Origin: Psychrobacillus soli
GTDB lineage: Bacteria > Bacillota > Bacilli > Bacillales_A > Planococcaceae
Reading direction: 5' to 3'
DNA: 64,000 bases
NCBI RefSeq assembly: GCF_006861775.1
Contig: NZ_VDGG01000001.1
Span: forward strand, 1-64,000
Numbering within the stretch: the stretch's first letter is position 1; every line of letters begins with the position of its first letter. The position numbers were made by a program, and so were the translations under genes. The notes under the pieces were generated by a model, which saw only the letters and a list, made by a program, of their open reading frames with translations, did no database searches and was not told the DNA's origin. Below, in pieces: positions 228 through 48,612 of the stretch.

Positions 228-270
228 ACAAAAAAGCGATGTCCCAGCCATCTTCGGCTGAGCCATCGCT
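228..270 (-). terminator. Rho-independent terminator of the cobalamin riboswitch
   Basis: A hairpin with outer arms AGCGATG/CATCGCT and inner arms AGCC/GGCT is followed on the minus strand by six T residues. It lies about 100 bases downstream of the cobalamin aptamer and is the obvious off-switch of its expression platform. Confidence 0.8.
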
Positions 271-375
271 CAAAGTTAAAAGTGGGAAACAACAAGACTA
301 ATCCACCGATACGATGAAAACCGTCTTTCGCCCCCACCTCTCAACCCCCGAAGAAAGTGTTGCTTCATACGATAA

Positions 376-525
376 AAAGGCAGGTATACTGGCTCGTGTT
401 TCACCCTTCTGTTGGCCTTCCCACGATTGCTCGCAGTGGCTGTTTCAACAGTCGTCCACACTTACAGTTGCGGGGACAGCCTCGGTATTTCACCGAATTC
501 CCTTTTAAACCATAATGGTACCAAT
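376..525 (-). promoter_or_regulatory. cobalamin (B12) riboswitch aptamer
   Basis: Read leftward, the sequence has the conserved cobalamin-riboswitch blocks in order: GGTACC then AAAAGGGAA; GGTGAAATACC; the B12-box-type CTGTCCCCGCAACTGTAA; CCACTG; GGGAAGG; and AGCCAGTATACCTGCC. It lies just downstream of the S-box leader and upstream of its own terminator at 228-270. AdoCbl-type aptamers of this class repress transport, biosynthesis or B12-independent isoenzyme genes when cobalamin is present. No regulated gene is inside the window; the next 227 bases are a dispersed repeat. Confidence 0.93.
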
Positions 526-562
526 GTATCGTTTACATGCTATATATTGTGATTCTAAAGAC

Positions 563-606
563 AAAAAAGAGTCTGCTCCTGATAATTATTAAAGGAGCAG
601 ACTCTT
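563..606 (-). terminator. Rho-independent terminator of the SAM riboswitch
   Basis: A perfect 14-bp stem (AAGAGTCTGCTCCT against AGGAGCAGACTCTT) with a 12-base loop is followed on the minus strand by six T residues. It sits about 20 bases downstream of the S-box aptamer, the normal position of an S-box transcription terminator. Confidence 0.88.
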
Positions 607-625
607 CGTATGAATAAGTCTTTTC

Positions 626-732
626 CTCATCTACCAAGTCATTTCATCGACTTGCTGGAATTAGCACCATGCCATAACAGGCGGTTGCTGAGGTGTCATC
701 GGGCCAGTCCCTAAACCTCTCTAGATAAGAAA
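626..732 (-). promoter_or_regulatory. SAM riboswitch (S-box leader)
   Basis: On the minus strand the S-box consensus is evident: a P1 strand CTTATCTAGAGAGG, then GGGACTGGCCCGATGA, CAGCAACC, GGTGCTAATTCC and a closing P1 strand TAGATGAG that pairs with CTTATCTA. S-box RNAs bind S-adenosylmethionine and terminate transcription of methionine and cysteine genes. Here the leader runs into a terminator and then into a cobalamin riboswitch, giving a tandem two-ligand leader. Confidence 0.93.
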
Positions 733-3224: not shown

Positions 3225-5456
3225 TTAATAATACAAGCCATTTCTTTTTTCGGACAATTCATGCGCTAAGCGAATCGTTGAAACTGCTAGCTCTGCATAC
3301 GTCACTTCTTGAGCAGGGTTAAACTTGTTTTGATCCGTCTCTACTAATCCCATGGAACTTGCTAGAGCAACATAGCCTGTATATTCTTTTTTCACTTTAT
3401 TTGCATCGGCAAAGTTTAGTTTATAAATATCGCTATGTTTAGCTGCTTGTTCCAGACCTAGAACACGTATATACCAAGCCGCTACTTCTTCTCGTGTAAC
3501 TAGAGAGTCAACATCAAAACTCTTACTCGTTGGTTTAATAACGCCCATTTCAAGCGCACGTTCTATCGGTTGATATAATGGGTGTTTAGGATCTATATTA
3601 TCAAATGTTTGGTGCGAATTGTCTCTACCGCCATAATAACTACCCGAGTAAAAATAAGTGAGGGAATTCATCACAATTTTTAAAGCTTCCCCTTTTGAAA
3701 TAGAAGCATCTGCATTGAAGTCTTTCTTATTTTTAATGTCTAAGATTTTAGCATTAATTAGATAATTAAGTTCTTCTCCCGCTGAAGGATGGGAAATGAC
3801 AGACGTACTGTTTCCACCATAACTGTTCTTCCATTCCCCTGTATTCGCGTCTAAGAAACCAAATGGATCTTCGTTAAAGATAGGAGAATATACTAAATCA
3901 TAGTGATGATTGTCTTCATCTCTTCCTTGCTTCATATAATTCAACTTTAAGCTTAATGCCTCTTTCAATTTAGCTTCTGCGTCTTCTGCAGAAATAACTT
4001 TATCAATAGATGGCCAGTTTTCTACTTCTTGATAATTGACATAAAGGCTGTTTAACGAACCATCCGTGCCAACACTTACTCCGATTTGGTCACCCATTAC
4101 AACAATTCCATTTACGATTCTTGGGAAATTGAAATGATAAGTACCTAGCCTTTCTTCAATATATGGCTCATCTACAGGCATAGCATAATTGTGTAGATGG
4201 GATGGAGCCCATTCTTTTAAATATTTTACCGCTTGAGCAAGCGCTGCTTCTTTAGAGAGTGGATTCTCTGTTTTAGGATTCTCTCCAATTTGTTCTAAAA
4301 GATGGCTAGTTATATCATGGTATTGAGTAATTTCACCAGTATTTTTATTTATTTCTAAGCTTGATCCAGTTCCGCTGTTCCCATAGTTATACATATATTG
4401 GATACTAATAACAGCCTGTCCGTTATAATTCTCTATCTCATCGATTGATGAAATCGTAAATTTAACTTTATCCGATTTAATATTTAAGAATTGTTCCGCT
4501 ATTTTCTTTGCGGATTCCACCGTAATATTTTTTTGTTTTGGAGGTAACGGACTCGCTGCTAGCTTTTCGATTTTCGATTTCTCTGGGATCTCTTCTACGT
4601 ATCCATTTGCAGTTAGCCACTTACCTGTAGATGCGTGCACACCTTGCCATTTTGCTACAGGTTGGTAGACTAGCTGAATACTGCGTTCACCTGTTTGATA
4701 ATCGGTATTCACTTGGTATTGCAAATCAGCAAATAGACTTTCTTTTATTTGTTCTAGAATCTCTTTTTTATCTTTAATTTGTTTCACATCGTCGAATGTA
4801 GACGCTCCTGCTTTCGTAGGGTTTCTGTAAAAATTAACGATTTCCCCGTTTCCAAGAACCGTTACTTCTATTCTTTTGTCAGCAATAGGTACTTGATTTT
4901 CCGTACGAGCGAAAGAAAAGGAGTAGCGAATCGGTTCTGTTAAAATTTGTTGAGGGTAATAGTTGTAAACATTTGGTTCTAACTCATATTTTTCTCCGTT
5001 CAAAAACTGCCCTACAAAATCAACTGCTATTTTCTCGGCATCTTCTTTTGATACTTTTGCGGGAAATAATGATTCTTTTTCAACAGTTGGCTGATAGTAA
5101 AATTGCTCTATTTCTAATTTTTCTCCAACAAATCCAACACTTCCGTACAATCGTTTCCCATCAATCGTTTTAGTGAAAGATAAATCATAACGTACTGTAT
5201 CATCATCAGGGTAAATATGAGAACCACCCATATGAAAGTCACTACTTGTTAAAAAATCGAACTTCTTAGGAAATAACTCATGAAACTTCTTAATTAAATC
5301 ATTTTTCGTAAAAACGTTGTCTGTTGAAGCGACTAGAATTTGCACTTGTTCTTGTTGCCCCACTCCATTGGTTGAAGCACTTGCAACAGAAGAAAACATG
5401 CCAAAAGATAAGGCAGATGAAGCTAATACAATTCCAATTTTCTTTAATTTAACCAA
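3225..5456 (-). CDS. secreted YcdB/YcdC-repeat protein with three C-terminal SLH domains
   Basis: A 743-residue exported protein. It has a signal peptide (basic start, hydrophobic core, cleavage near SVASA-S about residue 27). A long middle region of PepSY-like YcdB/YcdC repeats follows, visible as repeated SKEDAEKIAVDF, VESAKKIAEQFL, SKEAALAQAVKYL and SAEDAEAKLKEAL segments. Three S-layer homology modules cover about residues 563-743. SLH domains anchor proteins to pyruvylated secondary cell-wall polymer, so the protein should sit on the cell surface. The YcdB/YcdC part is often linked to peptidase regulation, but its role here is unknown. It starts at TTG with a perfect AGGAGG six bases upstream and is monocistronic. 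Confidence 0.85.
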   Translation of the reverse strand: MVKLKKIGIVLASSALSFGMFSSVASASTNGVGQQEQVQILVASTDNVFTKNDLIKKFHELFPKKFDFLTSSDFHMGGSHIYPDDDTVRYDLSFTKTIDGKRLYGSVGFVGEKLEIEQFYYQPTVEKESLFPAKVSKEDAEKIAVDFVGQFLNGEKYELEPNVYNYYPQQILTEPIRYSFSFARTENQVPIADKRIEVTVLGNGEIVNFYRNPTKAGASTFDDVKQIKDKKEILEQIKESLFADLQYQVNTDYQTGERSIQLVYQPVAKWQGVHASTGKWLTANGYVEEIPEKSKIEKLAASPLPPKQKNITVESAKKIAEQFLNIKSDKVKFTISSIDEIENYNGQAVISIQYMYNYGNSGTGSSLEINKNTGEITQYHDITSHLLEQIGENPKTENPLSKEAALAQAVKYLKEWAPSHLHNYAMPVDEPYIEERLGTYHFNFPRIVNGIVVMGDQIGVSVGTDGSLNSLYVNYQEVENWPSIDKVISAEDAEAKLKEALSLKLNYMKQGRDEDNHHYDLVYSPIFNEDPFGFLDANTGEWKNSYGGNSTSVISHPSAGEELNYLINAKILDIKNKKDFNADASISKGEALKIVMNSLTYFYSGSYYGGRDNSHQTFDNIDPKHPLYQPIERALEMGVIKPTSKSFDVDSLVTREEVAAWYIRVLGLEQAAKHSDIYKLNFADANKVKKEYTGYVALASSMGLVETDQNKFNPAQEVTYAELAVSTIRLAHELSEKRNGLYY

Positions 5457-6240: not shown

Positions 6241-6954
6241 TTAGATAGTGTTCAATAACCGTAACCGGTACGAATTCATTGCTGTTTCTCCAAGCTGGTC
6301 AAGCAGTTTATAGTTGGCGAACGCCCCAACAACTGCTCCAATGCCAGGTAGTAACTGAAACATTTTAACTAAATCAATATGATCCCTATATTCCTGTTGA
6401 AACTCTCGCCAGTCCATATCGGCAATCACATGTTTCTGTTGTTCCCAATTTTCAATAATAACTAATACATCTTTTCTTTTTTCCTCACTTGAAAAAGCTA
6501 ATAAGAAAATATGCAAAAGGAAAAGTCTCTCTTCATAATCCTCCGTATCAAACCCATAAACAGCAGCAGCTTCAAAAAGAAATTTCATTTTTATCGATAA
6601 TAGTAATGGAAAATCAGCGAGTCCAAGAAGTATTCCCCCTGCCCCTGTTCCGGCACCTTCAATAACAGCCGTTTTTCTAAAGATAGAAAGTTTTTCTTTC
6701 AGAAGCTCGTCACGCTCATAAAGACTTATTTCTAATGGTAACCGTTTTTTCGTTGTCATGTTCGAGCCTACTAGCGTTGCTTTCACCATATTTTTGATAC
6801 TTTCTGTCATTACTTGATGAAACTTTTCTGGAATAAGCCCGTTAATCTTGTTCTGTACATTTTTAGAAGTTCGGCCTATGATGCCAGATTTTTTTGTCAT
6901 TCTATGCTTCCAAAAGTAAAGTTGTTGCTCTACTTCTTTTGTATAATCCACCAT
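6241..6954 (-). CDS. EcsC family protein
   Basis: A 237-residue protein of the EcsC family. The hallmark glycine-rich hydrophobic segment AVIEGAGTGAGGILLGLADFPLLL is followed by a KMKFLFEAAAVYGFDTED segment, and a second glycine-rich patch LLPGIGAVVGAFANY lies near the C-terminus. Free-standing EcsC-like proteins occur across Bacillales. Their function is poorly known, and no ecsA/ecsB ABC-transporter genes are adjacent. AGGAGG with good spacing supports the ATG start. It is transcribed alone. Confidence 0.8.
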   Translation of the reverse strand: MVDYTKEVEQQLYFWKHRMTKKSGIIGRTSKNVQNKINGLIPEKFHQVMTESIKNMVKATLVGSNMTTKKRLPLEISLYERDELLKEKLSIFRKTAVIEGAGTGAGGILLGLADFPLLLSIKMKFLFEAAAVYGFDTEDYEERLFLLHIFLLAFSSEEKRKDVLVIIENWEQQKHVIADMDWREFQQEYRDHIDLVKMFQLLPGIGAVVGAFANYKLLDQLGETAMNSYRLRLLNTI

Positions 6955-25558: not shown

Positions 25559-26056
25559 CAAGTTTACTTGTATTGAGACGACCATGGTTTCGTCATATTA
25601 TAGAAATAATATGACGAAAAGCCCGCCGATTTTGCCTGGCTGGCATCTGCTCGACTAATTTGTCGTGTTCCAAGGCAAGATTGTCTCGTTCAACCACTTA
25701 TTGTTAATATCGGACACTGATAAATTAGTGTTTTTCCATTGATTTTCGCTGGAGTGCGGCGACTCCGAAGGAGGCCCAATAGGAGGTTGGTCACAAAGGC
25801 GTTGCCACACGATGTGGCGTTCTTAGCCTTTGTTCCTCTGTGTGAGTAAGATGAGACTTCACAACTACACGGCGGTGAAGGCTCATCACTCACCCCACGG
25901 AAAGCGTCCGTCCTGCAGCGGAAATCACAGTGGATCCTAATAGAGCAATATACAGCGCAGTATCCCCCTATACTGCCTTCGATTAAAAAGTGACTAAACT
26001 TAATTACATTACAAGTGAAAATTTATCCACAGATATAGCATTTTAAATTTCCAAAA

Positions 26057-26094
26057 CAAAAAAATAACCACCTCTCTAATTTTGAGAAGTGGTT
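26057..26094 (-). terminator. terminator of the M20 amidohydrolase gene
   Basis: Arms AACCACTTCTC and GAGAGGTGGTT on the minus strand are followed by seven T residues, about 55 bases after the stop at 26148. Repeat copy B begins directly behind the T-tract. Confidence 0.8.
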
Positions 26095-47884: not shown

Positions 47885-48612
47885 TGTCAGCTGGGATTTT
47901 CACTGCAGGTCGGACGCTTTCCATGGGGTGAGCGATGAGCCTTCACCGCCGCGCTAGCGCGTACGGTGTGAAGTCTCATCTTGCTCACACAGAGGAACAA
48001 AGGCTAAGAACGCCACATCGTGTGGCAACGCCTTTGTGACCAACATTCTGTTGGCCTCCACTGGAGTCGCCGCCTTGCAGCGAAAATCAATGGAAAATAC
48101 TAACTTATCAGTCTCCGAAATTAACAATAAGCGGCTGAACGATACATTATCCACTGCCAACGCGACAATCACGCCTTTGAACACGACAAACTAGTCTATT
48201 AGATGCCGGCCAGGCGTTTTCGGTGGGCTTTTAGGCATATTATTCCTATAATATATCGAAATCATGGTTGTCTCAATCCAAGTGAACTTGCTATTGTAAG
48301 AAATTAGTTGCTTTCATCGGCAATTTAGTTGCTCTCATGGTGATTTTAGTTGCTTTCGTACTGAAATTAGTTGCTTTCAATAGCTTTTTGATTGCCCTTA
48401 GCCATTCTTTGGAATTTATTAATTAATTACTATATAACTTTGGAATATTGCACGACAGCGTGAGACTCTGCAAGAGCGTTAGCGACGTAGCGGCCTCTTT
48501 ATAGAGCTCTCTACGACGCATTATCCCTAAACTACGCTCAAAACTATAAATCTCAATCTTATGATTTTTAAAAGTTATCCACACTTCAAACTTTTTTAAT
48601 TTCCTAAGCCAC
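47885..48612 (-). repeat. dispersed intergenic repeat, copy C (mostly inverted)
   Basis: 47885 to about 48530 is the inverted counterpart of copy B, with the same order of blocks and the four 21-base units at 48299-48382. About 35 extra bases lie near 48415-48450. The final part, 48520-48612 (TATCCCTAAACTACGCTC, TTATCCACA, TTTCCTAAGCCACAAAAA), instead has the same direct orientation as in copies A and B. The copy is therefore a mosaic. It abuts the T-tract of the ridA terminator. Confidence 0.75.
48299..48382 (-). repeat. four 21-base tandem repeats (copy C)
   Basis: The inverted equivalent of 25469-25552, with only a few substitutions per unit. Confidence 0.85.

Follow-up and report, generated by a model that had tools for sequence, protein, structure and literature searches.

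A tandem SAM and cobalamin riboswitch leader in Psychrobacillus: a probable NOR gate on metE put together from yitJ-metE and nrdE leaders

The window analysed here is a 64,000-nt stretch of the Psychrobacillus soli genome (G000; 4.2 Mb, 101 contigs) that begins at base 1 of contig C1 and has a GC content of about 37-40%. Close to its left edge, on the minus strand, a SAM riboswitch is followed by a cobalamin riboswitch, each with a terminator of its own (Table 1). Both aptamers were recovered by cmscan against Rfam at the gathering thresholds, the SAM-I aptamer RF00162 with 93.4 bits (gathering 44.4, E 4e-21) over the full model (1-108) and the cobalamin aptamer RF00174 with 120.2 bits (gathering 31.5, E 1.4e-29), again over the full model (1-189). 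Compared with dinucleotide shuffles, the fold was markedly stable for the SAM part (z -5.4) and for the cobalamin part (z -3.5). The original prediction, made from the sequence of the window, had placed tandem SAM and cobalamin riboswitches at 228-732 and named these two covariance models as the check; its coordinates proved accurate, the strand is the minus strand, and the two terminators are present.

Table 1. Features of the tandem leader and of the adjoining contig end (window coordinates).
Feature	Position	Strand	Basis
SAM-I (S-box) aptamer	624..731	-	RF00162 full-model match
S-box antiterminator, putative function	593..627	-	forms with the P1 5' strand blocked
Intrinsic terminator 1	563..606	-	sequence and fold; arms AAGAGUCUGCUCC...GGAGCAGACUCUU, then U run
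NrdR-box remnant	537..552	-	13/16 consensus positions; same place as the nrdE-leader box
Cobalamin aptamer	362..540	-	RF00174 full-model match
Possible cobalamin antiterminator	263..375	-	375-370 (3' strand of P1) pairing with 268-263 (5' arm of terminator 2)
Invariant platform segment, between cobalamin aptamer and terminator 2	334..359	-	identical in 21/21 genus leaders
Intrinsic terminator 2	230..270	-	sequence, fold and conserved helix; AGCGAUGGCUCAGCC-GAAGAU-GGCUGGGACAUCGCU, then U run
Predicted start of repeat insertion between gate and metE; contig end	1..214	-	44 matches in the genome; absent from the sister species

The platform segment 3' of the cobalamin aptamer, 26 nt in length (CACTTTCTTCGGGGGTTGAGAGGTGG), is nearly identical in Paenisporosarcina as well. 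A kissing loop between L5 and L13 of the cobalamin riboswitch was considered and, on inspection by eye, rejected as unsupported, L5 being variable and the downstream segment invariant. Elsewhere in the same genome, two divergent S-boxes lie approximately 180 nt apart (G000:C31:5965-6070, minus strand, and 6247-6400, plus strand).

Folding of the SAM riboswitch with the 5' strand of P1 blocked yielded an antiterminator helix in which AGGA (627-624) and AGACU (621-617) pair with AGUCU (603-599) and UCCU (596-593), and the same helix forms in folds of the leader of the sister species and of a Sporosarcina leader. On the cobalamin side, the 3' strand of P1, UUAUCG (375-370), can pair with CGAUGG (268-263) in the 5' arm of terminator 2, so that P1 and this pairing compete, as expected of an OFF switch. 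Five to six such pairs are possible in all 21 related leaders, but the helix is absent from the minimum free energy (MFE) fold with P1 blocked, and we therefore infer the switching step of this half. The terminators as alternatives to aptamer-controlled antiterminators, on which the predicted logic depends, are thus clear for SAM, and short but conserved for cobalamin.

In the proposed mechanism, P1 of the S-box would form at high SAM, its 3' strand would become unavailable to the antiterminator, and transcription would stop at terminator 1; at high adenosylcobalamin, P1 of the cobalamin riboswitch would form and transcription would stop at terminator 2. Because two independent OFF switches stand in series, either ligand should end transcription, which is the behavior of a NOR gate. 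With metE, the gene of the B12-independent methionine synthase, as the target, expression would occur only when SAM and B12 are both scarce, and the B12-dependent MetH would take over when B12 is present. Binding of SAM and adenosylcobalamin, and the switching of both riboswitches, are predicted here from sequence.

Since the end of contig C1, base 1, falls within a genome repeat, the window itself lacks a target gene; positions 1-228 consist of repeat without a plausible gene start. The target is indicated by the genome of a sister species (G017), in which the whole 505-nt leader is present at 93% identity, both aptamers are confirmed by Rfam, and metE follows approximately 100 nt downstream. 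In the window's genome, metE is located on another contig (C28:453-2738), and the 452 nt upstream of it contain no riboswitch. Alignment to the sister locus accounts for this arrangement: C28 from base 373 aligns at L056:5121 and C1 from base 215 at L056:5117, the two sides of one junction on contig C24 of G017, and synteny of C1 and C28 with that contig extends both ways from the junction. This collinearity implies that a repeat of at least approximately 586 nt lies in G000 between terminator 2 and the ribosome-binding site of metE, an insert that could carry a terminator or promoter. In the sister species, leader and metE are contiguous. Beyond metE, C28 carries kynureninase and its neighbors, and then S-box-yitJ-metH; MetE and MetH of this genome both score above their NCBIfam cut-offs (MetH, TIGR02082, 1266 bits versus 1011). 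Given the position of the leader before metE in the sister species, the collinearity of the two contigs and a host that also encodes MetH, there is good support for a SAM/B12 NOR gate on metE. The next gene after the leader, which the original prediction proposed to read, is metE in the sister species; the window ends before the gene, and in its own genome the link is drawn across a contig gap.

Both contig ends, on C1 and on C28, bear copies of the repeat element, in opposite orientation. A repeat of the same kind at 25776-26059 of the window contains Bacillaceae-1 RNA, and C1 stops exactly where the Bacillaceae-1 RNA of the repeat would start. Bacillaceae-1 RNA matches within the window are at 25776-26059 and 47988-48054, and dozens of partial copies of the element that bears this RNA are scattered through the genome, many of them located at the ends of contigs. 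A Bacillaceae-1-type repeat between the gate and metE may weaken their coupling in this genome. On the other flank, the sister species carries, directly before the tandem leader (L056, approximately 4390-4500), a piece of sequence similar to the 3' terminus of the SDR gene that lies upstream, and its SDR/GGDEF gene order differs from that in the window; these are traces of local duplication or rearrangement beside the leader.

The two halves of the leader have different nearest relatives. The SAM half, aptamer and terminator together (query positions 1-170 to 1-180), is approximately 81-89% identical over 169-180 nt to S-box leaders of Sporosarcina-type yitJ-metE operons, which share with our locus the presence of metE in the same operon but differ in that yitJ stands between leader and metE. 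At ten such loci from a related genus, the order S-box, yitJ, metE was found in eight, the other two having no metE within the fetched stretch, and Rfam detected no cobalamin riboswitch in any of the ten. A copy from another S-box of the genus itself was rejected as the source: those matches mostly cover about 80 nt of the aptamer, versus 169-180 nt including the terminator for the Sporosarcina operons. The S-box tree, built on approximately 115 columns and with a bootstrap that had not settled, located the tandem S-boxes within the group of operon leaders without keeping G000 and G017 as one pair, and an AU test of a single clade with other tandem leaders gave p 0.014 on this short alignment.

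A second trace of the operon lies in front of metE, where the 5' UTR in G017 and in G000 aligns to the end of yitJ and the yitJ-metE spacer. A yitJ-tail profile built from the ten operons scored 11.8 bits in G017 and 10.9 bits in G000, values reached by none of 1000 shuffles each; when the ribosome-binding-site region was removed, the signal persisted in G017 (0/1000) and was weaker in G000 (4/1000). Pairwise alignments of the tail were equivocal, the shuffle counts for L079 and L080 ranging over 0-103 of 2000. Within the genus, close metE genes are found only in G000 and G017; in another member, G004, metE is distant (54% identity) and is preceded by a cobalamin riboswitch alone (L161:1796-1979). 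MetE of the window's genome is approximately 84-85% identical to Sporosarcina MetE, compared with 76% for NrdE, which hints at, without proving, acquisition of the metE operon by transfer.

The cobalamin half, comprising aptamer, expression platform and terminator (query 179-505), matches a stand-alone leader present in 19 of 19 genomes of the genus at 82-90% identity. The gene behind that leader is nrdE, encoding the alpha subunit of the B12-independent ribonucleotide reductase; G000 also encodes the B12-dependent class II enzyme. The gene for the latter, nrdJ, occupies two separate frames, and a group I intron lies between them (RF00028, 74.8 bits; L196:1869-2197, G000 C14 ~174384-174725). 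A tree of 38 aptamers, built on a short alignment, puts both tandem copies inside the nrdE group with support 100/100, and grouping them in a single clade with the aptamers of 13 other tandem metE leaders was rejected by an AU test (p 7e-9). The resident nrdE leader was excluded as the direct ancestor: at 84% identity, it is no closer than those of other species (up to 89%), so that the copying was not very recent in this strain.

The similarity begins at an NrdR-box-like site, which reads ACACAATATATAGTAT in most nrdE leaders and TCACAATATATAGCAT at the metE leader. At nrdE of G000, this site has an upstream partner box (12/16 positions) across a 16-bp spacer, the spacing of the box pair that NrdR needs (PMC12051234). 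Unlike the nrdE leaders, the metE leader has a SAM riboswitch ahead and a single degraded box, with no good partner left beside it. Oligonucleotides with a single intact box were bound 530-1000-fold more weakly by E. coli NrdR (PMC12051234), and thus the remnant is probably a fossil. That it still binds NrdR, which would act as a road-block in the transcribed leader and give metE three inputs (SAM, B12 and the dATP/ATP state), seems extremely improbable.

Gates of this type are known. Tandem SAM-I/AdoCbl leaders of metE have been described as NOR gates, with eleven counted in either order (PMC9481103), and have been called common, with the metE locus of Priestia megaterium tested (PMC9600662). 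Among 80 metE loci, we confirmed by Rfam 13 further tandem SAM-cobalamin leaders in Bacillales, and these 13 form the comparison set of our alignments, separate from the Bacillus clausii and P. megaterium leaders. The Psychrobacillus leader resembles the gate of B. clausii and P. megaterium in its order, SAM then cobalamin with one terminator each, in its position upstream of metE, as read in the sister species, and in its metH-bearing host. It differs from the B. clausii type in the NrdR-box remnant between the halves, in its nearest relatives, which are nrdE and yitJ-metE leaders, and, in the window's genome, in the repeat that separates gate and gene. Across the 261 searched genomes of the family, to which Sporosarcina and Paenisporosarcina also belong, the two halves are joined only in G000 and G017.

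We therefore favor, at a probability of roughly 0.86, a transcriptional NOR gate on metE that was built independently of the Bacillus-type gates, from the S-box of a yitJ-metE operon and an nrdE leader. In the order of events that we envisage, a Sporosarcina-type S-box-yitJ-metE operon would have lost yitJ except for a short 3' remnant, most of the gene being replaced by a copied nrdE leader of the genus itself, with NrdR box, cobalamin riboswitch and terminator. The ancestry of both halves is evident from the comparisons above and, judged on the same sequences, the similarity to the tandem leader of the Bacillus type arose by convergence and not by shared descent. The NOR logic of the original prediction is supported by the two aptamers, by the terminators and their alternatives, by metE in the sister species and by metH; its likeness to the Bacillus type is one of convergence. 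Because the repeat insertion splits the gate from its gene in the window's genome, operation of the gate there is only expected, and continued control of metE across the insertion is presumed.

One challenge to an independent origin is that the tandem leader was inherited or transferred from a Bacillus-type metE leader and that its likeness to nrdE leaders arose by chance or through later gene conversion. Order and target are the same as in the 13 other Bacillales leaders, and a leader converted by the resident nrdE sequence could look like a copy, but for both halves the AU tests rejected a single clade with the other tandem leaders. Moreover, the SAM half, which an nrdE leader could not have converted, matches yitJ-metE leaders including their terminators and is not Bacillus-like, and a remnant of yitJ precedes metE; we thus regard this origin as very unlikely. 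It is still harder to credit that the two riboswitches serve different genes, or that the second has decayed, so that no two-input gate exists. The short cobalamin antiterminator missing from the MFE fold would fit such a reading, but the region between the aptamers shows no evidence of an ORF or promoter, in the sister species a single leader (93% identity) with conserved terminators contains both riboswitches ahead of metE, and the cobalamin platform is conserved throughout the nrdE leaders.

A more substantial alternative, though one that we consider unlikely, concerns the window's genome: the leader may have been orphaned by the repeat insertion or by a rearrangement between repeats, and would then end in a non-coding RNA, with metE unregulated or under another promoter. 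This scenario draws on the stretch without a riboswitch ahead of metE on C28, the contig break at a high-copy repeat, and the oppositely oriented element copies at the two contig ends. Against it, both aptamers and both terminators are intact and have kept their high scores, and the collinearity of the two contigs with one junction of the sister genome means that a simple insertion explains the gap.

Although the type of gate is known, its independent assembly here with both donors identifiable constitutes the new part. We found no description in the open-access literature of an origin from nrdE and yitJ-metE leaders, an absence that is weak evidence. With probable fossils of both donors still in place, an NrdR box and the tail of yitJ, the parts of a known gate type can be traced, and the locus offers an example, open to testing, of a two-input RNA gate put together a second time out of ready-made riboswitches. 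The assembly of this leader suggests repeated selection for SAM-B12 logic at metE in hosts that have MetE alongside MetH, and suggests that a riboswitch can be moved as a whole module together with its terminator.
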